This document shows positions 5,090 to 59,805 of a stretch of DNA of 64,000 bases, piece after piece. Numbering within the stretch: position 1 is the stretch's first letter; the number at the start of each line of letters is the position of its first letter. This DNA is from Polytrichum commune (taxonomy: Eukaryota; Streptophyta; Polytrichopsida; Polytrichales; Polytrichaceae). The notes below the pieces were generated by a model. That model was not told where the DNA came from and ran no database searches. It saw nothing but the letters and a program-made list of their open reading frames with translations. The DNA is taken from positions 56,754,758 to 56,818,757 of the forward strand of contig OX485805.1 in the NCBI GenBank assembly GCA_950295325.1, read 5' to 3'. The position numbers and the translations under genes were made by a program.

Positions 5090-6190
5090 GTGGAGGAGAG
5101 ATTTTCATGAATATTGATTGATTGATTGATTGATTTTATTTTATTTTTATTTTGAAAATCCAAGCTCAGTTGCATTTTGTATGACACTTTGGGGATTGAG
5201 GGCTTGAGGTTGAGACAAGTATTTCATAGTACTAGTCTTGAATTGAAAAGCTCATATAAGTATAAAGGAGAAAATTTCATGAATATTAAAAAAAAATAAA
5301 AAATAAAAATTGAAGCTCGTTTGCACCCTGCATGAAATTTTGAAGATTGAGGGCTTGAGGTCGGTAATATCGCACAATATTGGTCTTGAATGGCAAAGCT
5401 CATATAAATTTAGAAGAGAGAATATCATGAATATTAAAAAGATTACAAATTAAAGTCAGAGCTCATTTGCACTTTGTACGAAATTTTGGAGATGGAGGGC
5501 TTGAGGTCGGCACTAATACTGCAAAACCCTAGTCTTGAATGGCAAAGCTCATATAAGTATAAAGAAGAGAATTTCTTGAATATTCAAAAAGTAATTTAAA
5601 ATCAGGATTTGGGAGCTCATTTGCACTTTGTATGAAATTTTGGCAATTGAGGGTTTGGGGTTGACACTAGTATTGCAAAGGTTGAACCTTGATGGCAAAG
5701 CTCATTGAAGTATAAAATAAAGAATATCATGAATATTCAAAAATATAAATTTTGAAATTGGGATTCAAAGTTCATTTGCACTTTGTGTGACACTTTTGGT
5801 GATTGAGGGCTTGAGGTGAATATTGTTACTGCAAAATACTAGTCTTGATTGGCAAAACTTGTATAAGTAGAGGAAAGAAAAATTCACGAATTCTCAAGAA
5901 AAGAAAAATTGACATAAGAGCTCTTTTGCACTTTGTATGAAACTTTAATGATTAAGGGCTTGAGGTCTAGACTAGTATTGTATAATACTAGTCTTGAATG
6001 GCAAAGCTCGTGTAAATGTAAAGGATTTTTTTTTCATGAATATTGAAAAATCATTATAAAATTGAGGTTCCTTTGCACTTTATATGAAATTTTGGAGATT
6101 GAGGGCTTGAGATCGGCATTAGTACTACACAATATTAATCTTCCATGACAAAGCTCATATAAATGTAGAAGAGAGAATTTCATGAATTAT
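5090..6190. repeat. Tandem array, about seven units of ~150 bp
   Basis: The landmark TTCATGAATATT recurs near 5106, 5276, 5425, 5572, 5727, 5884, 6034 and 6178, a period of about 150 bp. Each unit also carries a GAGCTCATTTGCACTTTG-like segment, GATTGAGGGCTTGAGG and TCTTGAATGGCAAAGCTC. Units are diverged, so the array is old. The first unit is longer because of an inserted (GATT)n run at about 5115-5135. Confidence 0.9.
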
Positions 6191-6332
6191 AAAAAAATAA
6201 GTTATGTACACTCTCTTCAAGTGAGCCAAAAAATGTATCTTTGAAACTAAAGACCTTTGCCAGTTGGCAACTTCTAAGTGGTGCAAATACCAGAAAACAA
6301 CCTCCATTTCTAGGAGTTGTATGTGAACCCCT

Positions 6333-16740: not shown

Positions 16741-16923
16741 AGACGACAATAAACTACCGGATGATGGTGGAGAGATACCCAAATCTCAAGGAAGAGGTTG
16801 GTGGTTCGAATCCCGGCTGTGAAATCTCCTCTCTACTTGATGGAAACTTGCCAGATGGTCAACCCCCTCCTGTACTTTGACACTGGCCTGTCGGTCTCAA
16901 AACAATAAATAAATAAATAAATC
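16741..16923 (+). mobile_element. tRNA-derived SINE
   Basis: A perfect pol III box B (GGTTCGAATCC, 16803-16813) sits about 40 nt after a relaxed box A-like GATGATGGTGGAGAG. A tRNA-unrelated body follows, and the element ends in an (AATA)n tail at about 16905-16923. Its 3' half is repeated downstream inside the ~319-bp tandem units. Confidence 0.65.
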
Positions 16924-17795
16924 CAAACAACCAACTCAACCTTTGTTGGTAAAAAATGAGACGCACAGAAAATTGTTATAGCATTGCGTACTTCCAAATA
17001 GTAAGTCACACTAAATATCATATTTGGTGTGGTATACACCTGCAAATTGTACAAGAAGTACATTTATTATCCGGAGTAGGTAGCACTTGTGAAGCCTAGT
17101 AGACGTTGCATTGACCCCTCTTCCCCTCCCGATTTTCGGTTCAGTCATTGTCTACTTGACGGAAAACTTGTCAGGTGGTCAACCCCCTCCTGAGCTTTGG
17201 CGCTGGCATGTCGGTCTCAAAACAATAAATAAATAAATAAATCCAAACAACCAACTCAACCTTTGTTGGTAAAAAATGAGACGCACAGAAAATTGTTATA
17301 GCATTGCGTACTTCCAAATAGTAAGTCACACTAAATATCATATTTGGTGTGGTATACACCTGCAAATTGTACAAGAAGTACATTTATTATCCGGAGCAAG
17401 TAGCACTTGTGAAGCCTAGTAGATGTTGCATTGACCCCTCTTCCCCTCCCGATTTTCGGTTCGGTCATTGTCTACTTGACAGAAAACTTGCCAGGTGGCC
17501 AACCCCCTCCTGAGCTTTGGCGTTGGCATGTCGGTCTCAAAAAAAAAGAAAAAAAGAAAAAATCCAAACAACCAACTCAACCTTTGTTGGTAAAAAATGA
17601 GACGCACAGAAAATTGCTATAGCATTGCGTACTTCCAAATAGTAAGTCACACTAAATATCATATTTGGTGTGGTATACACCTGCAAATTGTACAAGAAGT
17701 ACATTTATAAGCCAGAGTAGGTAGCACTTGTGAAGCCTAGTAGACGTTGCATTGACCCCTCTTCCCCTCCCGATTTTCGGTTCAGTCATTGCAAC
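16832..17795. repeat. Tandem array, three units of ~319 bp
   Basis: The landmark GTCATTGTCTACTTGAC occurs near 17147 and 17466, and TCAGTCATTGCAACTG ends the array near 17790. Each unit contains a SINE 3' end with an (AATA)n or A-rich tail, CAACCTTTGTTGGT, and the palindrome CACTAAATATCATATTTGGTG. Units are highly similar, so the array is young compared with its neighbours. Minus-strand frames of about 70 codons repeat with the unit and are not genes. Confidence 0.9.
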
Positions 17796-26079: not shown

Positions 26080-29000
26080 ATGTGCAGGTTACACTCTTGT
26101 TATACTACAGTGTGTCATGTAGTAGTGGTATACCTTTGTCTTGCAGCTGCTTCAAGTCCTCGCTGGTGCACATCTTCCAATGGCCTACCAAGCCCAGCTG
26201 GGGCTCCGACAAGTGATACACCAATCTTTAACGGACCCTCATCAGCACCTGCTCCTTCACCGGTAATTAATTGATTAAATGAGTCAGACTTCAATATGCA
26301 TGCTTATTCATGAATGTTCAACTTGATTATTTCGCCCTGGCTTCTTGGACCTATATAAGTTTCATGTTGATGAGACCATAACCTGATTTGAACCTGAGCT
26401 TAAAAATTGCTAATGATTTCATGAGAGTGATACCTATTGTTATCCGATCCCAATATCACCAAGTTTTGCAGGATTTGTAGAGATGAACAAGACTTGTATC
26501 CATTCCATGAATAACAGGATATATACAGTGTTGGTGTTGTAGTAGCGTTGGAATTGAAAGATGTAACTATGTCAATATCTATAGTTGCATTTCGGCGGCA
26601 AAATCAGCGTTGCAATTCAATAGAGTTATCCTTTAATTCAACTAGAGATTTCGTTGGGAGTTGTTTGTTTTGCATACAAAACTTTCCATATTTGGTAAGT
26701 TTTTTAGTGCATGCTTGGAGTCCGTGTGGAGATTTGAACGAAAAACATTTTACATTGGTTCATTGGGGGACGCTCTCATCTTAGCACCTCTTGGCATGCC
26801 AAAATGAGTTCAAACCTCCACCTACCGATATAGAAAGTTCTTCGTTCAAACATCCACACTGACTCCAAGCATGCACCAAAAACTTGGAACATGGAAAACT
26901 ATGTATGCAAAACATCTAATTTTCCACCCAAATCTACCGTTGATATAATGGACAACTCTAATGTGGTTCTTAAAAAATAAAAATAAAAATGTGTACTAAT
27001 TGGATGAATGATTCGGTGATTTCTTCCAGGCATCTACAAGCAATCCGACTGACCCAGGCCAGATGGCAACTCTGTACAGCTTGTACACTTGGCTAGATGT
27101 GTGGAGGCTAAAGGGGACAGTTCCTAACATCACTGACATGACAATAGCCAACAGAGATCCATGTGTTTCGAAATGGGTTGGAATCTACTGCGATGGAGGC
27201 TCACCGTACCAGTTTATCATCAACATCACAGTGGTGGATATGAGTGGGAAATTTCCATCAAATTTTCTCACAGTCATGTCAAACCTCACCACCTTGATTT
27301 ACCTAAGAATCTACCAGAAGGGAAATGCGGCTATCTCCACTTTGTCTGGTACAATACCTGCAAGCCTTGGACAATTGCAGTCTCTCCAGGAACTCAACTT
27401 ACGAGGGAACCAGTTAACAGGTGGTGTCCCAGTTGAAGTTGCTCGCCTTCCTTTACTCAATTACATCAATTTGGCTGATAACCACTTGTCAGGCCCATAT
27501 GACCAGTTTTGTGAGTCCAAGTCCTTGCAGACCATCCTCCTGTTCGACAACCTCTTCAACCAGTCCATTCCTTCGTGCCTCGGCAACATGAACCTAACCA
27601 ACCTTAACCTGGGTGCTAACATGGTCACTGGTGCCATACCTGATAGTTTTGCAAACCTGACATATTTGTCAACCCTGAACCTTGACAACATAACATTAAC
27701 TGGGGGGCTCAACAATTCCATGGTGGCCAAATGGACAAGTTTGACTTCCATCTCTTGTAGGAGGAGCAATTTGTCAGGACCCTTTCCTGAAGCACTTGGG
27801 AGCTTGCCCTATTTGAACACCATCCAACTTGCTCAAAACCAATTCTCAGGCTCCATTCCAAGCTCCCTTGGCAACCTCCAAAACCTCATGGTTTTAGCAC
27901 TCTATGAAAACCGCCTTACTGGAGAGGTGCCTCCTGAGCTTGGAAATTTGAAGAACCTCACCCACTTGTTGTTGGCCAATAACTCTTTATCTGGCTCGAT
28001 TCCTCCTAGCTTGAGTGGATTGTCAACATTGCAACACCTCCATCTACAGGGTAACAACTTCAGTGGGCCTTTTGAAGCGGGAATCATCACCAACATGACA
28101 AACTTGGTGGGGCTCTTTCTTCAGGTAACTATTCTTAGATGCAAAATTTAACAAGTTTTATATGTTTGGAAAGATTTCGTGATAGTACCCGTTGAATTCT
28201 TCTAGCTCTTGATTCAAGTGTGGCTTAAACCCAAGGCCTTAACTTGGATCCCATGGGAACAATGAGGTTAAGCCACGTAAGGCCAAAATAGTACTTGGGT
28301 GGATGACCTTCCTAGTACTTGATTGTTGATGCACCCTACCACCTATAGTCCACCCAATCATAGTGGAGGTATTTGTTGGGTGAACCAAATATTTTCAGCC
28401 AACCATGTGGGCAACCTAAGGGCTTGTCCTTGGGGAGACAGGTGTTAGTTGGCTTGTCTACATCCGTTCAAGGTGTTAACCTTTGAAAGGAGGCAAATGT
28501 CTTTGGGACCCTCTAATTCTCCTAACAAAGGCCCTTGTGTATGCAACCCTCATATTATATGCATGGGGCATCAACATGAAAATGGCTTAGAGGACGGCTT
28601 TTGTAAAACAATTATCAAATTATTAAAAAAAACCAAAAAGTTGGGTGAAGACGAAATTTTAAAAAATGAGATGTAGAAACAATTAGATTGCATATTTATT
28701 TATTTATTAAAAACCTTCACAATGTATATAAATAATTGTAACACTTTTTTTTATAAAAAAAGAAACCTTGTAGAATGTCTAATTTTAAAAGATCCACACG
28801 AGTAGTTGCCTCCAAATAAAATTAAAAGTCATTGGCAATTTTTTATTTATAATGTATAAAATATAAATTAAAAATTAAAAAGCCCAAAAATCTGGGTAGT
28901 TTGGCCTATGGTAATTGCTTTAAAAAAACTCATAAAATCAGGCTCTTGATGCAATTATAAGCTTCAAGGATAATTCATTTCCTGTATATAATTACATTTT

Positions 29001-32000
29001 TGGATTCCTTGTCAAAAGGGCTACAAGAGTTCCCTACATTAAAACAAATTATATCACTCGATATTGGATTAAATTGCATCATATGTGATTATAATCAAGG
29101 CCATATAATATGGGAGTTGTGTACCCAGGCTAAGGCCTTAACCCGGAGCCCATGGGAACTCCAATATTTAGTCCGTCTAAGACATGGATAGTACTCAAAT
29201 GGGTGGCCTTCCTTGCGTTTGATTTTCAGTGCACCCTTACCACCTATGGTCCACCCAGCCATAGTGGAGGTATTCGGCTGAACTGGATCCCAACCAAATA
29301 TTTTCAACCAATCATGTGGGAACTTGGGGGTTTGTCACTAGGGGAGAGAGGTGTTGCTTGACTTGTTTATGCCCGTTCAAGGTGTTCACCTTCGGAAGGA
29401 GACCGTAGTCTAGCGCCCTCTAATTCTCATAATGCATGTTTCGGGATTACATATAGACTTAGACCAACTCACTCGAAGATGAAGAAACACACATGATTCA
29501 TGCCGGTGGCAACATCAGAGGCATCCTTCTTCTTGCTTTCTTTCTATCTTTCTTGCAGCTGCTGATTCGATTCTGCGGGGGCTTATTTGCTTTCACGACA
29601 TATACTGATGATATTGCCTGTGGTTGATTTGCTGTGGAAATGGTTTTCCAACAGGAGAATAACTTCAATGGATCGTTTCCTAGCGGCCAGATTTTTAATT
29701 CCTGCCTGTCACTTGTCAATGTGAGCTTAAGCTACAACGAGTTCACTGGTCCGGTGTTAGAAGAAGGGGCAACCCTGCCTGTCAATCTGACCTTTCTTCT
29801 CATGAGTTACAACAATTTCTCCGGATCCATTCCAAGTGCAATAGGAGAGACGACGAAGTTGCAGTATCTGGATCTGGCGAAAAACAATCTAAGCGGGAAT
29901 GTACCTCCTGAGGTTCTAAGCAAACTTACAACTGTACCTTCGGCTCAGATCAATCTATCATTCAACAAGCTCAATGTTTCCAAGCAATCGACACAGCCTG
30001 GCTTTGGTCTCTTCACCTGCTTACCTCAGGTATATTCCTCATGTCATTAGGCAATGGTCCACCAAATGCTTAGAATTGTAAAGCTCTGTTATGTGAGCAA
30101 AGTATCATCCACGACCTTTATCAAGTTCAGTAATAGATTGACAAGGTTACATATAGTATGTTAATATCTAGTGTCATGGATGATTTTGTGCCCGGGGTGC
30201 ATGGCAACTTATGCACAATTTTTTTTTTTTCTGAAATCTTGTCATGCTAAGGAAGGTGGCTTAAATCCTTAATTATGATCACATTTGGAAGAACATATTG
30301 TGAAACTAATGAGAGATCCGAGCCAATGATATTTATTTCTCAGAAACAGGTCAGTAGTCTAGAAAGTATTATGGTTCATAAAAGTGTCTGTGCATACATT
30401 GGGTTTCAAGTGCAAATATGATTTAGTGGATATGTGCATACATGGTTATGATTAGTGATCGTAAAGCATCATTAGTGGCATAATGAAGAAAAAACTGACC
30501 ATAAGTTAGAAATAATATTAAATCGTAAATGCACAAGACGATGTTCATGATCTGCACACTTCCGGGTATTTGTGCAGGATGCCAATTGCGCAGAATACCA
30601 CGTGGGAAATGGAGAAGGCGTCGCCATAAATGTCGGTGGTCCTCAATATCTCGAATACGAAGCGGATGTGGTGACTCCAGATTTCCCAGTTGGGATGTTC
30701 ACAGTCTCCACTTCATCCATGTGGACTATGAGCGCAACTGGGGTGGATGGTGCTTGGATATTAAACAGGACCCAGACCCTCACGAATGCGGATAGCATTG
30801 ACTACTGGACTTTGTACAACACTGCGAGAACAGGGGCTGATTCGTTCACATATTACATACATTCCTTGCAACTAGGTAAATACAAAGTGGATTTAGGGTT
30901 TGTGGAACTCATTGCTGACATCCGTGCGGGTGAGCGAATATTTGACATCTGGATCCAGGACCAGCTGGTTTTTCAAGGCATGGATGTGGTGGTCCGAGCC
31001 CCGGGACAATTTCGGGCATTTGTTGAGGAGTTTCACGTGGAAATGGCACCTAACGATTTGGGGCTTCTGAGAATTGAGCTTCGAGGCCATGGGAGTTGGC
31101 CGTTGGCGTTCAATAAACGGACCAAACAAGGATATTACTATGGCCCCATCCTCTCGGCCCTTCATGTGTATAGGGTTCATGGGCCTAGTAAACTTGCCAA
31201 GATTGCCATTAGATTAAGTGCGACCCTTGCCGGCTTTCTACTCGTGGCATCAGTTTTCTTGCTGGGGGCGTTCTGTCGGAGACGCCACCGCAGGCTTCAA
31301 GAGCTGGAAAAAGAACATGCAAAACTAGGCCTAAAGTTTTTCAGGTATGTAAAAAACCGTGGCAATTTCTTTTAGTCATTGCAAGGATGGATCATTACTA
31401 ATTAGGTGCAGAATTTGGCACCGTAACCTAGTCTCCTCGTAAGATCCCAAGGAATGGAAAACCATACCAGGGAGGCTGCACACCTATAATTCTATTTTAT
31501 TTTTAGACATCAAAATTTATTTTACCCTCTCACAAAACCTTGCAGAGCACCTATGTGCCTTCAAACGTCATCCCAGCCACTGGTTGTGATGTCACTCATT
31601 TGAACCGTCCATCCATTCAAGACACCAGAAAGAAATTCCTATGAGAATTACATGCCTGGGTACCTCCTCTCGTACGACTTCCTATGTCGAATTTGGGTTC
31701 CAATCTTTTCAACACATGTCTTCTTTGGTGTCTGTTCTTAGATTGACACCCAACCATACAACTCTCCAATATAGGTGTCCATTTAGGATCAAACATTGAA
31801 TTAGGCGGCACATGTATCTTAGTGGCATGTGTGTTGGAATTATGCAGACTCAGTGAACTGGAAGCCGCAACAAACAAGTGGTCAGATGGGAATTTGCTGG
31901 GTGAAGGTGCGTTTGGCAGAGTGTACAAGGGTCTTCTCCTGGACGGAACAGTGGTGGCCATTAAGAAACTGACAACCACGACGAATGGTGCCTTCTGTTC

Positions 32001-34857
32001 CAAGGAGGCCTTCCTTAATGAAGCTCGCATCATCAGTTCCACGCGCCATCGCACCCTGATAGCCCTCTTGGGTTGCTGTTTTGAAACCTCCCACCCTTTG
32101 TTTATCTGCGAGTACATGCCCAATGGCAATCTCCACGATGCACTCTTTGTTCACCACATCCATCTTGACTGGGCTCAAAGGTGCGAGCAAGCAACCTCCA
32201 ATCATGAGCTGTTTGTTTGTTTTTTTTCATTTTTCTTTATTATTATTTCTTTCTTTCTTCATCAATCTTTGCAATGAAACACGAAGTGTCAGCTGTAGAA
32301 AGAAATACAGAAAGACAAACCGGTGTTGCCACTGGCATGGATTATGGTGTTGCTTCATCTTTAAATTGGTCTAAGTCTATATGTAATCCCGAAACGTGCA
32401 CTACGAGAATTACAGGGCCTTGAAGGCTATTGCCTCCTTTCAAAAAACACCTGCAACAGGCGTGGACAAGCCGGCTGGCACCTATCTCCCCCAAGGGCAA
32501 GCCCCTAGGTACATGGTTGGTTTAAAACATCCAGTTCACTTGGATACCCCCACTATGATTGGGTGGACCAAAGGGTGCACTGGAAATCAAGTGCGAGGAA
32601 AGTCACCCATCCAAGTACTATTATGACCTTAGGCGGCTTAACCTTAGTGTACCCAATGTTAAGGCCCTAGGGTTAAGCCCCATTGCCAGTTTCAATAATG
32701 CATCGTCACCAACCAAAAACATGTGCCACATGTCATCGTGTGTTTAGTTGGGACCTATTGAAAGATGACATCGAAATTGAGTTCTAGTGGACAACTGCTC
32801 AATCAGACGTGAACAATACTCCTATTTTTGACTCTGTATATTGTGATCAGGTCGGCAATCTTAAAGGATGTTGCGAGTGGATTGCTGTATTTGCATGAAG
32901 AAACTTCTCATCAAATCATCCATCGCGATGTGAAACCCGCCAATATTCTCCTCGATGACAAGTTCAATGCGCGCGTTGCGGACTTTGGGCTAGCACGCCT
33001 TGTGGCCGATCGAGAAGTAGATGTCATCACAGATGTCATGGGCACCCGTGGATACCTTGCTCCAGGTACATCTCAGAAAAATCAATATCCTCTATTAGAA
33101 GAAACCTTGTGCTTATTAACCAACCATTTCGCCTTCTCCATGGGGACTCTAATATATTATCAATTTGACTGCCCAACCATCCAAAAATTGCAACCAAAAA
33201 CTTCAGGCTGGTAACCAATTGATATATTTATACTTTTTTTCTGTCAAGGGTCACAACAGACCGTTGTAACAGGAAAAAATTATTCACAAGTTCTCTAAAT
33301 TCTGTTCAGGTTGCTTACTTGAACACACTTGAGTGTCAATCACTCAACCTGTGATTTCATTGTTTTTCAAACTTATGATGACAGTACTTAAGTTGCTCGA
33401 TGTTGAATCACGAACATTAAATCATGTTTGCAAATCTTGTGCAGAGTACGCATTGAATGGACAACTGTCTGATAAGGTGGATGTGTTTAGCTATGGAGTG
33501 GTGTTATTGGAGCTTGTCAGTGGGCGTCACGGGTTACAACCGTCACGAGACCTCCCAACTTCTGTCCCAATTTCGATTGTCCAATGGGCATGGGATATGG
33601 TGACAGATGGAAAAGTTCTTTCTATTGCTGACCCTGCGCTGGACTTCAGATTCTACAACGAAGACTTCATTCATATAGTTGAAATTGCCCTCTGGTGCAC
33701 ACAAAGCCACCCTCACATGCGACCTAGTATGAACCAGGTGAGCAACTCCACTAATAAGATAAGCCAAGCAATTTTTCGCCTTGATAATTATACTGTCTTC
33801 TGGAAACTCAATAATGTGCTAGGTTTGAGTATTATTAAGGTGCATCCAATTTCTGTATTTAATATGATGTACTAGATGATGGCCATTGAGTGGACCCAAC
33901 TGAGTGGCGGGTGTCCGCGAGCTAGGTCGAGCCAATGGTCATTCTCTAATGTAAGTGTCCATTGGGATGAGATTTTGCACATTATAAAAGAACTTCTAAA
34001 ACAATATGTCGGACCATATGACATTTTGAATGAGAAGGATGTGTTTGAAGGTGATTCATTCTAAGAAAATTTGGATGGAGGACAATATTAACCTCTACCC
34101 GATGGTAATTATGGACTAGATAAGCATTGAGAAGAGAGTGGATGATGAGCCACAAGAGCAGCAAGTCATCCACCTACTTGAAGCTAGTCATCGGTCATAA
34201 CCAATCAACTCATAAACAAAATCTGAAAATTAATATGGAAGATATTGTGACTCTATGGATGCAAATTTGTGATAAGTTATGTTAAGTCTTCAAATCTTGG
34301 ATGAGCGATCATTGATGGACTTCATAACATGCGAGAGGAGAGCAGATGACGAGTTGCGATAGCATCAAGACATCCGTCAACTTCTCGTTCACCATGGAAC
34401 ATAATTGGTTTGCTCATAAATGTAGACTATAGGTTATGAATGAGATGTCCTCTTCATAGATAGAAAACTACACAAGAATTGTTGGAAGTGCCTTCCACTT
34501 GGATGAGGGATTGGTTATGGACGTGGAATAATCTAATGTTTGTTCGTTTGTTGGTGCTTTGTATGATATTAGGTCTTGCGCATGTTGCATAAACAAGCAC
34601 GGATACCCCCGCTGTCTGCACAGAGAATCCATTATGAGACACGTGACATGACTAGACTACCTTCTACTCCATTCGACGATGTGGAGTGGCAATCATACAT
34701 CTCAATGGCGTCGGAAGCAAGCATGGCCAAATTCAAGGTTTATCAAGGATTCAGCCCCATCTTCAGTCCCAGTGACGCAATTCATCCAAGCATTGGCGAC
34801 CCTTCAAGTTTTGACAGCTCAGCAATATGCCCAATCTCAGGAAGCTTGGCTCGATGA
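26080..34857 (+). CDS. LRR-malectin receptor-like protein kinase (8 exons)
   Basis: Membrane receptor kinase of the plant LRR-malectin class (LRR-VIII-like order). In-phase exons: 26080-26262, 27030-28124, 29655-30029, 30578-31344, 31848-32180, 32851-33065, 33445-33737 and 34573-34857, giving about 1,181 residues. A hydrophobic N-terminus (VCHVVVVYLCLAAA) is followed by a Pro/Ser/Ala-rich linker and an LRRNT-like cap (WVGIYC). LRRs follow to about residue 550, then a malectin domain (about 552-755), one TM helix (about 760-783) and the kinase. Kinase motifs are intact: GEGAFGRVYKG, VAIKK, HRDVKPAN (RD type), DFG, GTRGYLAPEYA and HMRPSMNQ. It should bind a cell-wall or peptide ligand outside and phosphorylate Ser/Thr inside. 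The ligand is unknown. The start is the weak point: TTTGTCTTGCAG just before 26147 is a good acceptor, so a separate upstream signal-peptide exon is possible. Introns carry three 5S-derived SINEs and a fold-back element. Confidence 0.9.
26608..26970. mobile_element. Fold-back element in intron 1 of the receptor kinase
   Basis: Arms of about 130 nt (about 26608-26745 and 26839-26970) are inverted copies sharing GTTTTGCATAC, TGCATGCTTGGAGTC, GTGTGGA and TTTGAACGAA. The loop is about 95 nt. It lies wholly in the intron between the linker exon and the first LRR exon. Confidence 0.7.
28210..28590 (+). mobile_element. 5S rRNA-derived SINE, copy 1 (intron 2)
   Basis: The head GGATCCCATGGGAACAATGA, GGTTAAGC, AGTACTTGGGTGGATGACCT and a final TGCACCC follows the plant 5S rRNA order (GGATCCCAT, GAACTCC, GTTAAGC, AGTACTAGGATGGGTGACCT, TGCACCC). 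The box C region of the 5S internal promoter is recognisable. The ~230-bp body (CCACCCAATCATAGTGGAGG .. GTTCAAGGTGTTAACC .. CCCTCTAATTCTC) is shared with the other two copies and is unrelated to 5S. Confidence 0.75.
29114..29475 (+). mobile_element. 5S rRNA-derived SINE, copy 2 (intron 2)
   Basis: The head contains GGAGCCCATGGGAACTCCAA, then ATAGTACTCAAATGGGTGGCC and GTGCACCC. The body matches copy 1 and continues to the family 3' end GTTTCGGGATTACATATAGA. Same orientation as the gene. Confidence 0.75.
31690..31825 (+). repeat. Dispersed repeat, ATAGGTGTCC family (in an intron)
   Basis: Contains ACATGTCTTCTTTGGTGTC, CAATATAGGTGTCCATTTAG, ATCAAACATTGAATTAGGC. It ends only about 20 nt before the splice acceptor of the first kinase exon (31848), so it supplies part of the 3' end of that intron. 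Confidence 0.7.
32366..32700 (-). mobile_element. 5S rRNA-derived SINE, copy 3 (intron 5, reverse)
   Basis: Read on the minus strand: GGTTAAGCCGCCTAAGG, AATAGTACTTGGATGGGTGA, CTTTCCTCGCACTTG, CAGTGCACCC, then the shared body, ending GTTTCGGGATTACATATAGA. Box C (GGATGGGTGAC) is the best preserved of the three copies. It lies between the exons ending at 32180 and starting at 32851. Confidence 0.75.
34127..34520 (+). repeat. Repeat in the last intron, also found upstream of the second TPR gene
   Basis: Two related ~100-190-bp segments (GAAGAGAGTGGATGATGAG.. from 34127 and GAGAGGAGAGCAGATGACGA.. from about 34332) match the segment at 54825-55005, which has GAGGAGAGTGGATGACGAG, GCTCATGGTTTGTAAACTGT and CTTAGATGAGCGACTG. 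Confidence 0.55.
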
Positions 34858-37649: not shown

Positions 37650-39623
37650 CCTTACTTTACATTTTAGAATTTTACAATGATGAAAAGACATCATGTCTGT
37701 TGACGTAGTTGTTGTTCCAAAGTTCCAAAACAGTCGGCCATTGATGTCTGCATGCTAATTAGAAATCGGTGCATGGGTGCCACAGGGCAGAACCTTTTTG
37801 GCACAGACCAAAACTAGAATACTATATGATAGGACCTCCCTCCTAGTCGGGCCACTACCTAGACTAGTACAAAATCACAATGAGAAGTTTAGGTGCACAA
37901 GGCATGAATTCGTATAAAGTGCATTTGGGGGTGGGAATAAGATCAGTTTCTTAGTATATATGTTAGTACATGTCTACACTTTGCATAGTAAAATACCTAT
38001 TTTTATATATGTAAATATCGGAAGCAATCTAGATGTTTCTTTAAAGATTAAAAAAATTATTAGTTATAGTATGCTTCTAAGGAAGTGTTGGGTATGCCAA
38101 AGTACATTCCACATTCATGGCGGAGGTTCGATTAACCATTCCTTCACTACTACCAAACATGTCCAAAAAGCACACATTTTGGCCCCACCCCATCACTTCC
38201 CCAGACTTCTTCAGCCTTACGCTTGCTTACTACTTATATTCTGGAAGTTTGATCTTACAGTGCTCTTGTGCGAACCTTATTAATTGCCTGACAGACTTGT
38301 GCTGGTCTTAGAAGTTGGTCGGCTTCTAATCCGCTATTCTGTTGCAGATTCGTGTGGGGAGAGTTTCTTCCTTGCAGGGAATTGTCCTGACATACAAATT
38401 CTTGATGTCTAGACAACCAGTTTTGGGTTCTCAAATGTGCTCAGCATAATTATAATTTGGTGCTATTCGGTGAGTATCTTGACGTTATTTCTTTGGTCAG
38501 ATCATGAGGAAAGTGGGGTTTGAACCCCGGTTTTAGAAATTTCTTAATGAGAACAGCCATGTGGCAGCTCAGCTATGTATGTGAAAGGTTTTCTGATAAG
38601 TTGGCCTTCTTCGAACACAATGGTAGCTTATATATATTACAAAGAGGAAGTTGACAAGCTCTCTCTAGGATTCAGTCTAATGGTGATTTTTTGGAAGCAG
38701 TTCAACTCATTTCATCTTGATAAAGTGTTGACCTATAGCTTTCCGAGAGCCTTCCCCAGTAAGTTTCTAGTAGATATAGATTGATTCTCAGGTCAATGTA
38801 TACCTCTTGCATGTAAATCACTAGATGTAGTTATTTTCTCCCAAACTTGCTTTTCTTAGAGGTCAAGGTCTACATTGTACTCAAATACGCCACTAGTATT
38901 GACACCTTGAAAATCTCAATCTGCTTAAATTTCTAGTTCCTTTGGGCAAGGCATTGTGTTTTCAGGAGAGAAAGGCTTTCAAGGTGCGCCAATGGTTCAG
39001 TTAAGGGCGCCTTCAACCGCACGTTTTGTATAGGAGATTCAAAGTTGTTGCTGAAGGATTTGGGGTACGCTCTTCTCTTTGAAACCCATCATCTTTGAAA
39101 CCCATCATCATGGTTGACGAACAAAATTTAACACATCTTGTAAGAGTTTGGGATATGTCTATTAAGTGTGTCAAATGTTGGATTCAAATGGGAACATAGA
39201 GGATTTTAAAGAAGGGGCTCGGTAGGAGCGTTGATACAGTATCGTTGATGAATGGGGTTTAGGTAGGTCTTTCAATAATTTGTGGGAAAATTGAGACACT
39301 CTAAAGGTTACGGCATTTAGAATATACATGTCGTTTGTGTTTAACACTACCACTAGTGGTTTTTTCTTGAGCTTATATCATGGTAAAACGTTGTGCATAA
39401 ATAACCTGCATCCTGGGTTGCTCAGTCCACACCTGGACCTTTCACATAGTCTTCAATTACCGGTTACAATATGAATTAGTCGGAATGGTGAGTGCAATCA
39501 TTCAGTAATTGGAAACTCACCTCTTTGTTTGTTGCTTGCAATGAAACTTATATCAGGCATATATTATGATTAAAGGATCTACTTGTTTTGGACAAAAACT
39601 CACCCAAATCAAAAAGCAATACA
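37650..39623. other. Upstream region of the first TPR gene
   Basis: Probably promoter and 5' untranslated sequence. Two short blocks (CATCACTTCCCCAGACTTCT at 38191 and AGACAACCAGTT at 38411) recur upstream of the second TPR gene (54728 and 54780). A tRNA-like stretch on the minus strand near 38510-38580 (TAGCTGAGCTG and GGGTTCAAACCCC) may be a worn SINE head. Confidence 0.4.
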
Positions 39624-42620
39624 ATGTCACAAGAGGTTCTCAAAGTTTTGGTGGACTTGTGCAATGATGCGCTTTCGAGTGATCAAGCTCGTGCTCATTC
39701 CCTCAAGGAAAGTGGAGTTCATGAACATGAAGTTTGGAACTATATTGGTGCACTACATGATTTGAAGGCAAGAATTTACATTGATCCGCATGATGGAGGC
39801 ATCCTTTACCAACAAGGCATTCTTGATGGTTTAAAGCTTGACAAATATGAGGATATCTCGAATTTTGACTTCAACAAGGCTCGTGGATTGGTGGCATGCA
39901 ATGTTGATGTTGTCTATGGCAAAGCAAATGCGAACTGGAGGTTGAATGATGATCATCATGGTGCCTCGGATGTTTTGGACACAAATGAATGTGATACAAA
40001 TCATGCAAATGATTCAAGACAACAAGGTATGGTCAAAAACACATTGGGAGACTGTCAAGGTGCTTTGCAAGGCTTGGATATCTGCAATGAACTTGAACCA
40101 GACACTCATGCCTCTACTCTTTTTCAAGAGGGGAAATGTAAGTATCTTGAAGGTGACTTTGAAGGTGCATTGCATAGTCTCAATAGAGCAAACATGTTTG
40201 AACCTAACAATCCTTCAACCCTGAGGTATTGTGGGATTGTTAAATTTTACATGAAGGATTACAAGGCTGCTTTGAAAGATTTGGACAAAAGCAATGAACT
40301 TGAAGCAAACAATTGGCAGACTCTTAGTGAACGCGGCCGAACTAAACACTTTCTGGGAGATCGTCACGGTGCATTACTCGACTTGGACAAGAGCAATGAC
40401 ATTGATCCAAACAATTGTCAAACCCTTACTGAACGAAGCCGGACGAGATACTATCTAGGAGACCACGAAGGCGCGTTGCTTGATTTGAACAAGGCAAATG
40501 AAATAAAAACAAATGATGTTTTCATTCTTCGAAACCGCGCATTCATTAACGGAACCATAGGTGACTATGAAGGTGCTTTACGAGACGCAAAGAAAGCTTA
40601 TGAACTTTGTCCTGATATCCTCTCTCTAAAATGCCGCGCATTTGCGAGATACTTGCTTAAAGATTGGCACCGTGGTGCACATGACATTCAACGAGCTCTT
40701 GAACTTGATCCCAACAACATTGACACTCTTCAATATCAAGCCGATTTAAAGCGCGCAATGGGCGATTATCATGGTGCTATAGATGACTTGGACAAGGCAC
40801 ACCAACTTCAACCAAGTGAGGTTTACACTTTGAAATACCGAGCAAACATGAAATACTTGTTGCATGACTTCCAAGGCTCATTACATGACCTGGACAAGGC
40901 TCATGCACTCCAACCGCAAGATCCATACATCCTCAAGGAGAGAGTTGCGCTTAAAGTGATGATGAAGAACTATCAAGGAGCCATGGGGGATTTGGAGAGA
41001 GCGCATCAACTTGACCGTGATGAATTTACTCATGGGATGCGAAGAGGTGTAAGACAAAATTCACAGCAATACTTGAAAGCCATGGCCAGCTTGTTGCAGA
41101 AGGTTCTTCACAACAGGAATTTATTGGAAGATGAAGATATTGTTGGTTTATACAAGGAGGTGTCCTCACAAATCTCATTTCTTCTAGATGCAACGACGAT
41201 TGTGTTTCAAATGTGGGCGTATTGCGCCGTGGTTGTCATTTTTGTGTTCATGTACTTGATGGGGTATGTGGAGAGAGGCCAATGGGGCACATATTCAAAT
41301 GGGTCGTGGGAGTTCCGTGCAACATACGTGTGTATAGAGCTAAGGTTGGGAGCCTACCCATTTCAGAAGTTTAGGAGTGCTTCACCTCGTGCATTTCATC
41401 ATGGCCATGTCCAAGATGATCAACCTTTGAATGATCATCGCTCACTTGCAAATCACCACTTCCAGCAACAAAGTGGTGATATGTTTGTACAAAGTCGATT
41501 GTATCCTAAAGTAACTCAGCGCACAAAATGGTGCGGCATTCACCTTCGTCATCGCAGAGGAAAACAAAGCACTCAACTCAAGTATGAGCCACGCGTGTCT
41601 TCACGAAGAGATAAGCTGAAGAGGATCTACCTTGGAGAATATCAATCTCTTGCAGATGCTATCCTCATCCGTGATGTAGCTCACTTTTGCCTTGGCAAGG
41701 CGGGTCCTCTAAACTTGGATCCCATTCTTTACGAAAATCTTGAAGCCATTCCAGAAGGTCTTACACAACAACAGATACACAAACTTGTTTTAGAGCGTGC
41801 AAAACAAGTTGATCACTCGGCTTTCAAGGACTCGCTAGCTCAAGAAATTTTGGAAGATGTAGGGGGAGGTCTTAGTTTACATTGTTTACATTCGAATCAG
41901 CAGGAGTTGGAACATAATAGTTCATACTTCGGATCCGACATTGGGGAGCTGGATTCTACTAACTGGACATCCTTTGAATCGCATGTTGCAACTCATCCAC
42001 AAGATGAGGTCTTATCATCAGATGCTGCAGTCATCATGTCAAGCACCACTTTGTCGACACCAAACGAAACATGGAATCTTCATGCCACAACAGAGCATTC
42101 ACTAGTTGGTGATTATTTTGAAGATGCAAATTTTCGAACTCATGCTCAAAATGTGGACACACACGAAGAACGGACGTCATGTACTAACCACGACCAATCA
42201 GAGGTCGGAGTTGGCAACATGCTTTCAAAGTTTGAACCATTTTATGGTCAAATTTGGTCGCCGCGGGCTGAGGTGTGGACTCGAATTATCATAATCAAAG
42301 CGCCAGTGGGGACAAATCTTCTTCAACACCAGGAAATCAACCAAGAGCTTGTGTTTGCGCCCCATATGCTCCGCGCATTCTCTACGTTCGAAACTTTTGA
42401 ATCAAAAGGGTGGACTGTATGTGTGTCCAATTGTTCCACTCCCTTGCAAAGTGCTTACCCAAGCATGTCGAGTCCTTTGGAGGAGACTCCGAAGCCATGC
42501 CAGCAATATTTGTTCCGAATCCAAAAGTTTGGGACTCACGAAGAGTTGGCAATTTCAGACTCCATTCGAACCGCATTGGATAAGTTGAGTAACCTCCCAA
42601 GTTGGATCGTGTTGTTCTAG
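39624..42620 (+). CDS. TPR protein with AP2/ERF-like module, paralogue 1
   Basis: Single exon, about 998 residues from the first ATG. It has about 13 tandem TPR-like units of 34 residues up to about residue 467 (typical unit: GDYEGALRDAKKAYEL, with the Gly/Ala/Asp positions of TPRs). Next come a hydrophobic stretch at about 524-549 (WAYCAVVVIFVFMYLMGYV), then GQWGTYSNGSWEFRATY. A segment at about 631-709 resembles the AP2/ERF DNA-binding fold: GI.LR.RRGK, then RIYLGEY, then ADAILIRDVAHFCLG. The C-terminal 130 residues carry TRIIIIKAPVGTNL and a closing SIRTALDKL, a domain I do not recognise. The frame is open upstream of the ATG and shares SPKSK with the paralogue, so an upstream coding exon may exist. 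TPRs imply a protein-binding scaffold. Function and location (membrane or nucleus) are open. Confidence 0.85.
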   Translation: MSQEVLKVLVDLCNDALSSDQARAHSLKESGVHEHEVWNYIGALHDLKARIYIDPHDGGILYQQGILDGLKLDKYEDISNFDFNKARGLVACNVDVVYGKANANWRLNDDHHGASDVLDTNECDTNHANDSRQQGMVKNTLGDCQGALQGLDICNELEPDTHASTLFQEGKCKYLEGDFEGALHSLNRANMFEPNNPSTLRYCGIVKFYMKDYKAALKDLDKSNELEANNWQTLSERGRTKHFLGDRHGALLDLDKSNDIDPNNCQTLTERSRTRYYLGDHEGALLDLNKANEIKTNDVFILRNRAFINGTIGDYEGALRDAKKAYELCPDILSLKCRAFARYLLKDWHRGAHDIQRALELDPNNIDTLQYQADLKRAMGDYHGAIDDLDKAHQLQPSEVYTLKYRANMKYLLHDFQGSLHDLDKAHALQPQDPYILKERVALKVMMKNYQGAMGDLERAHQLDRDEFTHGMRRGVRQNSQQYLKAMASLLQKVLHNRNLLEDEDIVGLYKEVSSQISFLLDATTIVFQMWAYCAVVVIFVFMYLMGYVERGQWGTYSNGSWEFRATYVCIELRLGAYPFQKFRSASPRAFHHGHVQDDQPLNDHRSLANHHFQQQSGDMFVQSRLYPKVTQRTKWCGIHLRHRRGKQSTQLKYEPRVSSRRDKLKRIYLGEYQSLADAILIRDVAHFCLGKAGPLNLDPILYENLEAIPEGLTQQQIHKLVLERAKQVDHSAFKDSLAQEILEDVGGGLSLHCLHSNQQELEHNSSYFGSDIGELDSTNWTSFESHVATHPQDEVLSSDAAVIMSSTTLSTPNETWNLHATTEHSLVGDYFEDANFRTHAQNVDTHEERTSCTNHDQSEVGVGNMLSKFEPFYGQIWSPRAEVWTRIIIIKAPVGTNLLQHQEINQELVFAPHMLRAFSTFETFESKGWTVCVSNCSTPLQSAYPSMSSPLEETPKPCQQYLFRIQKFGTHEELAISDSIRTALDKLSNLPSWIVLF

Positions 42621-56408: not shown

Positions 56409-56862
56409 TGATGACATGTCATTGTTTAATGGACGTTGAAGCTAAATGGTTGATCTGGCCATTACATATTTTATGGAAAACTTTGTGCAGGACAAAGTTC
56501 TAGGCTATATCTACTCGAGTGTTCAAGGCAACCAACTTTGGGGAGTACTTATTGTGTTTGTCCCAGCAAGTCACTTGTTCAAGCATTGTTCATTGTAAGA
56601 CAACATGTTTTTCAATGATTTTTCAAACAAGTTGTTTGCTTCTGAAGATCATGCTTGATGGACACAACAACCTCAACACGTAAACATTTGTGAATCAAAC
56701 TGGTGATTGTATTTGGTTTAAAGATGTGGGTTTCATCATTTTGTATGTCTTGCAGTCAAACAAAAATTGGCACAACCAATAACAGAGGCGGCGAGCACAG
56801 GACGCATTGTCATTGATGAGCAACTCGCCAAATGTAGGAGTCCAAAATCAAAAGGCTACACC

Positions 56863-59805
56863 ATGTCCAAAAAATCTCTCAAAACTTCAGTTGACCTGGG
56901 GATTGATGCATTTTCAAGTGATCAAGTCCGTGCTCTTTACCTCAAGGATGAGGGCATTCGTAAACGTGGCGTAGGGGATAGTGCAGGTGCTTTACGGGAT
57001 TTGAATGCAGCAAATGGGATCGATCCACAGAACGCGGACATCCTTTATGAGCGAGGAATCGTTTATGCATTCATGCTTCAGAAATTTGAAAAGGCTTTGG
57101 AAGACTTTGGCCAAGCTCATAAACTAAAGCCATGTTTTGTTGATGTTCTTTATTGCCGAGCATTTGCAAAGTGGGTATCGAACGATAATCACGGTGCCCT
57201 GGAAGACATAAACAGCGCTCACGCGCTCGACCCAAACGATGCACATGTTTTAAGGCTACAAGACTTCAAGAAGACGTTGTGCAATTACCAAGGTGCCGTG
57301 GATGATTTGGATGGAGCTCACATATTTCAGCCATACATTGCGTCCGTACTAAGAGAACGTGGAATTCTCAAAGGCATCATGGAGGATAAGCTTGGGGCTT
57401 TGCTAGACCTGGACAAGCACAATGATTCCGAACCGAAGAATGGCTTTACCTTATTCAAACAAGGTAAAACAAAATATTTTCAAGGTGACTTTGAAGGTGC
57501 ATTGCGTGATCTCAATGGAGCAAACGTGTTAGAACCAAACAATGCATCCGTCTTGAGGTATTCTGGAATTGTCAAATTTTACTTGAAGGCCTATAAAGCT
57601 GCGTTGAGAGATTTGGACAAGAGCAATGAACTTGAACCAAACAACTCTCAGACTCTCGCTGAGCGTGGTCGGACCAAACATCTTTTGGGAGATCGTGAAG
57701 GTGCGCTAGTTGATTTGAACAAGGCCAATGAAATCGATCCAAATGATGCATTCACACTAAGAACACGTGCATTTGTGAGAGGAATGCTACGTGACCACGA
57801 AGGTGCTCACCAAGACGCGAACAAAACTTACGCACTGCGTCCTTCGATTGCCTCGCTTCGTTGTCGAGCATTTGCTCGACATTTGCTCAAGAATTGGCAA
57901 GGAGCTGAACGTGACATAGGACGAGCTCTCGAACTCGATCCAAGCAATGTTCACACGCTTGGATACCAAGCTGACTTGAAACGAGCTATGGGAGATTTTC
58001 ACGGTGCTTTAGATGCTTTAAACAAAGGGCATGAACTTCAACCAAATCATGTGGACACTTTGAAAGCGCGTGCGACTTTAAAGCACTTGGTGAATGACTT
58101 TCAAGGGTCATTGTGTGACTTGGACAAGGCTCATGACCTTGAACCACGCAACGCATTTATTCTAAAAGAAAGGGTGGCACTTAAAGTGATGACAGAGGAC
58201 TATCAGGGAGCCTTGATAGACTTGGACAAAGCACATCACTTGGACCCTGATGAGTTCACCCGTGGAATAAGAAAAGCTGTTACACAAAATTCGCAACACT
58301 ACTTGAAAGCCATGGCAAACCTGTTGCAAAAGGTTCTTCACAGCACAAATATCTTGAGGGAGAAAGATATCGTTGGTTCGTATGAGGTTTTGTCATCGGA
58401 AATGTCATTTCTTTTGGAAGTCACAACAATCATTCTTCAAATGACTTGGACATATTATGCTGTGATGATCACTTTTGTGTTTAAATACTTGATGGGGTAT
58501 GTGGAGAGGGGTCAATGGGGAACATATTCAAATGGTTCTTGGGAGTTCCGGGCTACGTACACGTGTATAGAGCTGAGACTGGGAGCATACCCATTTCAGA
58601 AGTTCAGAGAATTGGCCTCTTCATTTCCACAAGGCCAAACCCAAAACAAACAACCTGTTGATAATCTTTGGGTTGGGGGATCCCAGTATTTTCAACAACA
58701 AATTGGTGATAATCTGCTGACAAGATCGCCTCGTGCAAAGAGTACGAAGCCATGGGGTATTCAAAATCGTTGGCGTAAAGGGAAACAAAGTGTTCTCTTT
58801 GAACCACGTGTATCAGCACGTTTATCATCATCACACAATAAGGTGAGCAGGATCTACCTTGGAGAATATCCCATTCTTGACGACGCTATTCTCGTTCGTG
58901 ATGTTGCTCACTATTGCCTCGGCAATTCACGACAGTTTTGTGTGGATTCCGCTGTGTTGAAAAATCTTGCTCCGATTCCACAAGGACAATCTCAACGCGA
59001 AATACGAAGATTTGTTCTAGAGCGTGCGGAGCATGCGAAGGAACTTTGTTCTTTTGGTTTCAAGGACTTGCCAACTCAAGATTCTGTAGAGAACTCAAGT
59101 GTCGGGGGTGACTCGCATTCCAATCAGCAAGAGCTTGATTGTCATTGGGGAGACAACATTGGAGGGTTGAACTCTACTGAAACAAGTGAAGAGCCAATGC
59201 CTTTAGAAACACCTCTTTCCGAAGATCTTAGTGCAGGCTTTGCTGAATTCATTGGGAGCCTTTTGCAAACACCGACAAATGACTCATTTAATGCTCGAGC
59301 CACAAAAGAGCTCTCGGCAGTTGGTCCTCCAAGGAATGCAATTCAATCTTATGATCCAAATGTGGGTGCACATGTGGGGACACTATATTGCCAACTTGAT
59401 GCGGGATTTGGCAATATGTCTTGCTCCTGCAAACCATTTTTTTCAATGTTACATTCGGGTGATTTGTGGACTAGACAAATTATAATCAAAGCACCAGCCG
59501 GTACCAACCTTCAACACAATTACGGCAGCCAATTCGAGCTCCCTTGTGCGCCCGTATTGCTTTCCGCATTCTCTGCACTTGAAGATTTTAGTGCACAAGG
59601 TTGGGCTTTGTCTTTGACCAATTGTTCAATTCACTCGCAAGTCGCATCTCCAAGTCCGTCGAACCACATGGAGGCAAATCTAAATCCATCGGAATGCTTT
59701 TTCCGAATATGCAAGTCTGGAACCGCAGAGGAGCTTGTTATATCCAATTCCATTCGGACAGCATTGGATAAATTTGGTGGTTTGGGATGGATCCCACTGT
59801 ACTAA
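56863..59805 (+). CDS. TPR protein with AP2/ERF-like module, paralogue 2
   Basis: Paralogue of 39624-42620 in the same orientation, with about 980 residues from the first ATG in one exon. Thirteen TPR-like units run to about residue 467, and the N-terminal units are better preserved than in paralogue 1. A hydrophobic stretch at about 524-549 (TWTYYAVMITFVFKYLMGYV) and the invariant GQWGTYSNGSWEFRATY follow. The AP2/ERF-like module at about 629-708 has WGIQNRWRKGK, RIYLGEY and DDAILVRDVAHYCLG. The C-terminal domain has TRQIIIKAPAGTNL and ends SIRTALDKFGG. The frame stays open back to a strong splice acceptor (AG at 56754-56755), so about 35 further N-terminal residues (including SPKSKGYT) could be translated from an upstream exon. 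A role as scaffold or membrane-tethered regulator is inference only. Confidence 0.87.
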   Translation: MSKKSLKTSVDLGIDAFSSDQVRALYLKDEGIRKRGVGDSAGALRDLNAANGIDPQNADILYERGIVYAFMLQKFEKALEDFGQAHKLKPCFVDVLYCRAFAKWVSNDNHGALEDINSAHALDPNDAHVLRLQDFKKTLCNYQGAVDDLDGAHIFQPYIASVLRERGILKGIMEDKLGALLDLDKHNDSEPKNGFTLFKQGKTKYFQGDFEGALRDLNGANVLEPNNASVLRYSGIVKFYLKAYKAALRDLDKSNELEPNNSQTLAERGRTKHLLGDREGALVDLNKANEIDPNDAFTLRTRAFVRGMLRDHEGAHQDANKTYALRPSIASLRCRAFARHLLKNWQGAERDIGRALELDPSNVHTLGYQADLKRAMGDFHGALDALNKGHELQPNHVDTLKARATLKHLVNDFQGSLCDLDKAHDLEPRNAFILKERVALKVMTEDYQGALIDLDKAHHLDPDEFTRGIRKAVTQNSQHYLKAMANLLQKVLHSTNILREKDIVGSYEVLSSEMSFLLEVTTIILQMTWTYYAVMITFVFKYLMGYVERGQWGTYSNGSWEFRATYTCIELRLGAYPFQKFRELASSFPQGQTQNKQPVDNLWVGGSQYFQQQIGDNLLTRSPRAKSTKPWGIQNRWRKGKQSVLFEPRVSARLSSSHNKVSRIYLGEYPILDDAILVRDVAHYCLGNSRQFCVDSAVLKNLAPIPQGQSQREIRRFVLERAEHAKELCSFGFKDLPTQDSVENSSVGGDSHSNQQELDCHWGDNIGGLNSTETSEEPMPLETPLSEDLSAGFAEFIGSLLQTPTNDSFNARATKELSAVGPPRNAIQSYDPNVGAHVGTLYCQLDAGFGNMSCSCKPFFSMLHSGDLWTRQIIIKAPAGTNLQHNYGSQFELPCAPVLLSAFSALEDFSAQGWALSLTNCSIHSQVASPSPSNHMEANLNPSECFFRICKSGTAEELVISNSIRTALDKFGGLGWIPLY

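Follow-up and report, generated by a model that had tools for sequence, protein, structure and literature searches.

We report here the analysis of two paralogous genes, P1 and P2, in a 64,000-nucleotide stretch of the genome of the moss Polytrichum commune (hereafter the window; positions 56754758-56818757 of the forward strand of contig OX485805.1, here C3). The assembly (GCA_950295325.1) comprises 408 Mb, of which contigs C1-C7 hold about 406 Mb (77.9, 70.3, 59.2, 59.1, 52.9, 44.7 and 42.1 Mb, respectively). P1 is one uninterrupted frame on the plus strand (window positions 39588-42620), with 1010 codons when read from a TTG; its first ATG lies at 39624. Residue numbers given below follow the TTG numbering, and are lowered by 12 if the ATG is used. 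P2, also a single frame on the plus strand, spans 56767-59805 (1012 codons; first ATG at 56863). The two proteins are 55% identical and have the same domain order. Over 949 aligned codons they differ at 283, 251 and 435 first, second and third codon positions, respectively, and the proportion of silent differences (pS, 0.59) exceeds that of non-silent differences (pN, 0.27), with a ratio of non-silent to silent divergence (dN/dS) of about 0.3; the pair is therefore real coding sequence under purifying selection.

Both proteins begin with about 13 units of the tetratricopeptide repeat (TPR), followed by a helical-looking stretch of 60 residues, a hydrophobic segment, a short conserved signature, an AP2-like segment, a weakly conserved middle part and a conserved C-terminal domain. 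The TPR arrays (P1 residues 38-479, window positions 39699-41024; P2, 56932-58254) were matched by Pfam TPR_2 at E 2.4e-24 and 1.1e-22, respectively. The register of the units, each of about 34 residues, was set by eye, and units 1 and 3 of P1 are weak. The hydrophobic segments lie at 41205-41261 (P1 residues 540-558) and 58426-58482, the signatures at 41295-41375 (P1 residues 570-596) and 58528-58608, and the AP2-like segments at 41523-41723 (P1 residues 646-712) and 58744-58950. The C-terminal domains lie at 42252-42617 in P1 and 59428-59802 in P2. In three paralogues this domain is 47-49% identical to that of P1; it gave no match in Pfam or the PDB. An earlier reading of the window from its letters alone (the sequence-only reading) had started P1 at the ATG and described 13 TPR-like units, a hydrophobic stretch of about 25 residues, an AP2-like segment and a conserved unknown C-terminal domain, in that order; the frame, the Pfam matches, the motif positions, the hydropathy of residues 537-558 and the paralogue comparison agree with it on each of these points.

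Genome searches with P1 and three of its relatives (L015, L043 and L021) revealed that the hydrophobic segment, signature and AP2-like segment recur together as a unit, referred to here as the cassette, which is open in at least 16 frames of three architectures; all family counts given here are lower bounds. Four frames with a TPR front (P1, P2, L009 and L010; the TPR class) lie at C3 56.56-56.81 Mb. Another four (L015-L018; the coiled-coil-tail class), located at C3 31.17-31.29 Mb, have a different helical-looking front and a coiled-coil-like tail, both labels being assigned by eye. The remaining eight (L020 and L040-L046; the C7 class) combine a short variable front with a Q-rich tail and lie at C7 14.43-14.57 Mb. 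L018 and L040 have a stop near the tail where their relatives continue. Six further cassette places (L011, L012, L013, L014, L019 and L047; the broken places) contain stops or changes of frame, and a front only was found at C7:14506498. On comparison of these sequences, different fronts are joined to one cassette.

The most conserved part of P1 and P2 is the signature ahead of the AP2-like segment, SNGSWEFR..Y..IEL..GAYPFQKFR in P1, which the sequence-only reading did not mention. Over the 41 codons that take in the end of the hydrophobic segment and the signature (residues 557-597), the two proteins are 95% identical, with dN 0.05 and pS 0.54; since identity is this high despite such silent divergence, the block is held by selection. 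The signature pattern was matched in all 16 open-cassette frames, and also in L011, L013 and L019, the three broken places covered by this search. It was not found by pattern search in L021, a related frame described below. L012 carries a variant by eye.

The segment behind the signature very probably descends from the AP2/ERF DNA-binding domain, as judged from profile comparisons. AP2/ERF is among the largest plant transcription-factor families, and its members are normally soluble nuclear DNA-binding proteins. The AP2/ERF hallmarks that had been read from the P1 sequence were present, in the order described, at residues 646-712. A family profile of ten segments (A7) searched against 177,635 PDB sequences gave six matches, of which the top five were all AP2 sequences from four proteins: WRI1 (E 4e-11, with a match to each of its two AP2 domains), two forms of AtERF1 (0.0025 and 0.0029), TEM1 (0.022) and ERF096 (0.039). 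With the TPR class and L021 left out, a profile of five segments (A11; four from the coiled-coil-tail class and one from the C7 class) again placed WRI1 first, at E 9.5e-8, among three matches, the other two not being AP2. Alignment of 12 family segments with six AP2 rows in hhalign (five PDB segments and one consensus) gave 96%; the A11 segments gave 94% against AP2, and the TPR-class segments (A10) gave 92% against A11. The 12 segments include L013b, which is partly in another frame and does not belong to the set of 19 segments used below.

A profile built from 14 AP2 domains of the same genome gave concordant results. It scored the P1 segment at 11.6 bits, a value reached by none of 2000 shuffles, the P2 segment at 7.2 bits (1/2000), and L010 and L021 at 18.1 and 36.1 bits, respectively (0/2000 for both). 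Across the 19 family segments, nine scores were reached by no shuffle and nine by one to eight, the weakest being that of L041 (26/2000). In a ranking by this profile of all the stop-to-stop frames with 50 or more codons that the window contains (412 in number), P1 came first (7.3 bits) and P2 third (2.9 bits), separated by an unrelated short frame (3.8 bits). L021 itself (C5:25659100-25659879) is an AP2-type frame of 260 codons that has no hydrophobic segment and, taken whole, no Pfam match up to E 1. In the whole-genome search it matched ordinary AP2 loci (C5:30887325, E 1.7e-8; C6:43680868, 3.2e-6) as well as the TPR class (1.5e-7 twice; P1, 3.2e-5) and, by these similarities, is a bridge between ordinary AP2 proteins and the cassette family. 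In a midpoint-rooted FastTree tree, all 19 segments of the family, together with two divergent fragments of AP2, were split from the other 18 AP2 sequences with support of 0.95; the tree was given little weight because the segments are short. A chance likeness to AP2 was rejected on the basis of the shuffles, the A7 and A11 searches of the PDB and the L021 genome search.

Several results weigh against this derivation. P1 has no Pfam AP2 match, either as a whole protein up to E 1 or as the segment up to E 10 with HMMER filters on, and the P1 segment used as a single query against the PDB found two sequences, neither of them AP2. The TPR class alone (A10, five segments) placed WRI1 first of six PDB matches, four of which were AP2, but at a weak E of 0.035, so that the class to which the window genes belong is by itself only suggestive of AP2; its hhalign alignment with AP2 reached 54% over 27 columns. 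The residues by which AtERF1 contacts DNA are kept in about half of the cases (A7 inspected by eye, AtERF1 numbering): Glu160 and Arg162 are kept, as is Arg170 in the TPR class, and Arg147, Trp154 and Trp172 are not. With the PF00847 model, one of 12 whole entries (which include one TPR-kinase and two pieces of L011) gave a match up to E 1, namely L010 (14.4 bits, E 0.05), and at a limit of E 10 two of ten segments matched, the better of them at 0.0021; the gathering cut-off of 33.3 bits was not reached by any. The derivation from AP2 proposed by the sequence-only reading is thus supported by the PDB profile searches, by hhalign, by the same-genome profile and by L021, though the Pfam AP2 model stayed below its cut-off in every protein scanned.

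In comparison with the AP2/ERF proteins WRI1, AtERF1 and TEM1, the family has the YLG strand, the next helix and the end strand in the same order and with the same spacing, in addition to the profile matches. It differs in staying below the Pfam cut-off in every protein scanned, in the position of the domain behind a hydrophobic segment, and in the loss of the first arginine of the sheet and of two conserved tryptophans (by eye). Because Arg147, Trp154 and Trp172 are replaced, DNA binding by the domain is doubtful, and we consider it somewhat improbable that it has been retained. Separately, AP2 matches, of which many are divergent, were seen to cluster at C4:24.3-24.5, C4:36.8-37.2 and C3:51.5-51.6 Mb, suggesting further AP2 arrays in this genome.

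The hydrophobic stretch of P1 (residues 537-558) has a Kyte-Doolittle mean of 2.21 over 19 residues and a Wimley-White octanol sum of -13.1 kcal/mol. In all 16 open-cassette frames the best 19-residue Wimley-White stretch sits at the homologous place, with sums of -4.3 to -13.1 kcal/mol (-9 to -13 in the TPR class). The usual Kyte-Doolittle threshold for membrane helices is 1.6, and this was reached in 11 of the 16 frames (P1, L015, L016 and the C7 class; 1.61-2.32). From these hydropathy values, the segment of the TPR class is probably a real membrane segment. Two observations tell against an anchor of this kind. The other five frames (P2, L009, L010, L017 and L018) are borderline at 1.39-1.47, P2 having 1.43 with a Wimley-White sum of -11.5; the membrane tethering suggested by the sequence-only reading is therefore favoured by one scale in every frame but is left borderline by the other in five. 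In addition, if the protein crossed the membrane once, the TPRs would face one side and the AP2-derived domain the other, an arrangement hard to reconcile with a cytosolic TPR scaffold and a nuclear output. This conflict would disappear with a two-pass hairpin. The second segment needed for a hairpin has a clearly favourable sum in the coiled-coil-tail class alone (-6.3); the sum is close to zero in the C7 class (-0.7), and in the TPR class the segment was not among the three best by Wimley-White. For the TPR class the hairpin was rejected as unsupported. The possibility that the hydrophobic stretch is a read-through intron was also rejected, because the sequence that follows it is the most conserved part and shows synonymous change; the stretch lies within one frame in all four TPR-class copies.

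The TPR array has relatives on the same chromosome. Frames at C3:54.7-54.9 Mb showed about 42% identity to the P1 TPRs (E down to 2.6e-39). These are single-frame TPR-kinases of about 800 codons at C3:54.72-54.90 Mb (L022, L023, L024 and L027), in which a TPR array is followed by a protein kinase domain, identified by Pfam in L022 and by eye in the other three; the latter appear nearly identical to one another by eye. They resemble P1 in their TPR units, single-frame structure and chromosome, and differ from it in having a C-terminal protein kinase and no cassette, which P1 has. TOM70 and other TPR adaptors also have TPR arrays. The NCBIfam TOM70 model matched here at 81 and 100 bits (cut-off 757), and there were PDB TPR matches as well; the likeness of P1 and P2 to them is no more than a general TPR resemblance. 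From its TPRs, P1 may have the scaffold role that the sequence-only reading proposed.

The fronts and cassettes of the family show different patterns of change. In the C7 class, pN exceeded pS in the front (the first 50-110 residues, approximately) in 17 of 28 pairs, and was below pS in the cassette in all 28; mean dN divided by mean dS was 1.56 for the front and 0.15 for the signature. For L044 and L045, one of several well-aligned pairs, the front carries 30 non-silent and 3 silent differences (pN 0.118, pS 0.041; Fisher p 0.037) against 9 and 7 in the cassette (front-against-cassette p 0.008). The corresponding counts are 35 vs 3 in the front and 11 vs 14 in the cassette for L043/L045 (p 4e-5), and 69 vs 10 and 15 vs 15 for L020/L044 (p 9e-5). 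Seven pairs were tested in this way, all having a front-against-cassette p below 0.05 and five showing an excess of pN over pS with p below 0.05; these pairs were chosen post hoc from the results for the 28, share members, and have p values that are uncorrected for multiple tests. Front pN was not above pS in the remaining 11 of the 28 pairs, which include L043/L044, the closest pair of all (7 vs 4), and six involving L040, whose aligned front is short (51-58 codons); divergent fronts align poorly. Mean dS was 0.34 in the front and 0.11-0.17 in the cassette, and part of the contrast may therefore be due to gene conversion acting on the cassette, or to fronts having been exchanged. In the coiled-coil-tail class, no region had significant pN above pS in any of the six pairs; in three regions the mean ratio exceeds 1 on the basis of few changes, which could be explained by relaxed constraint. 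The N-termini of this class are very unlike one another. The TPR class was under purifying selection in all three pairs tested, out of six. The diversifying signal is therefore a property of relatives of the window gene and not of the window gene.

Taken as a whole, we favour a membrane-anchored regulator with an AP2-derived output, to which we give a probability of about 0.5. The parts, their co-inheritance, the AP2 descent and the purifying selection are the computed elements of this model, and the anchor is a predicted one. The front, which in P1 is a TPR array related to that of the same-chromosome TPR-kinases, would bind a partner or ligand and so sense or scaffold; the anchor would keep the protein at the membrane; and the AP2-derived domain, which appears to have lost part of its DNA-contacting surface, would be the output: cleavage might free it as a module that binds nucleic acid, or it might have been repurposed to bind protein. 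Membrane-tethered transcription factors are known in plants, such as those of the NAC NTL and bZIP28 types. The P1 family resembles these in joining a DNA-binding-type domain to a predicted membrane segment, and differs in that the predicted anchor stands between a long front and the AP2-derived domain behind it.

Alternatively, the genes may form an immune-type or recognition family, in which the fronts are variable recognition domains, the AP2-derived domain stays constant and acts at the membrane in signalling or as a decoy, and the TPR class is a slow branch. The excess of non-silent change in C7 fronts beside conserved cassettes counts in favour of this reading, as does the clustering of copies with broken members. 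This reading has to accommodate the 11 C7 pairs that lack the excess and the post hoc choice of those tested, as well as the possible contribution of gene conversion or front exchange and the difficulty of aligning divergent fronts. The coiled-coil-tail class, for which relaxed constraint suffices, and the purifying selection on the TPR class of the window do not favour it either, and we regard it as unlikely. An extension of the same idea, that in a plant lineage the AP2 domain came to serve as the constant part of a membrane-bound system for recognition, with exchangeable fronts (a TPR array or other helical-looking domains) and one set driven to diversify in the manner of an immune or self-recognition receptor, is offered as a speculation with rather low odds.

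It is also rather unlikely that the protein is a soluble scaffold, nuclear or cytosolic, in which the hydrophobic segment forms the core helix of a soluble helical bundle at the end of the TPR superhelix. A capping helix is common at the end of TPR solenoids, and the Kyte-Doolittle values of P2, L009 and L010, below 1.6, would suit such a role. The Wimley-White sums of the TPR class argue against it, as does the C7 class, where most of the hydrophobic segments are unbroken runs such as AYAVVVAAVVLLSYVYLYLTG and there are no TPRs to cap. That the AP2 resemblance is a local strand-helix likeness in an unrelated domain, as the missing Pfam call and the 54% alignment of the TPR class might suggest, is very improbable, given that two family branches searched separately and the bridging L021 all lead to AP2, with the last strands and the helix aligned in register.

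The protein does not correspond to a catalogued family in the resources searched. Nothing covering the whole protein was found in Pfam, NCBIfam or the PDB (for the latter two with P1 and P2, or P2, as queries); the matches above cut-off were to TPR families only, plus the kinase in L022. No description of this protein was found in the open-licence papers searched, including passages of PMC11289646. The proposal that the domain order is undescribed consequently meets no contrary record in these sources, but falls short of proof, the plant genome covered being that of the window itself, and other mosses may have relatives that are already recorded as unnamed proteins. An AP2 branch with an anchor, a conserved signature not recognised before and varied fronts would show how a transcription-factor domain has been recruited to a membrane role. 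The fast-changing C7 fronts, in turn, would be candidate recognition genes in a plant group with a little-known immune repertoire.

Rfam and tRNA scans of the 64-kb window gave no match. Elsewhere in the window, pieces of a leucine-rich-repeat receptor kinase with a malectin-like part between them were seen by eye in translations of positions 27012-33875. Two tandem DNA repeats were also observed, one with units of about 150 bases and 72-78% identity (5143-6206), and the other with three units of about 320 bases and 93-95% identity (16832-17791).

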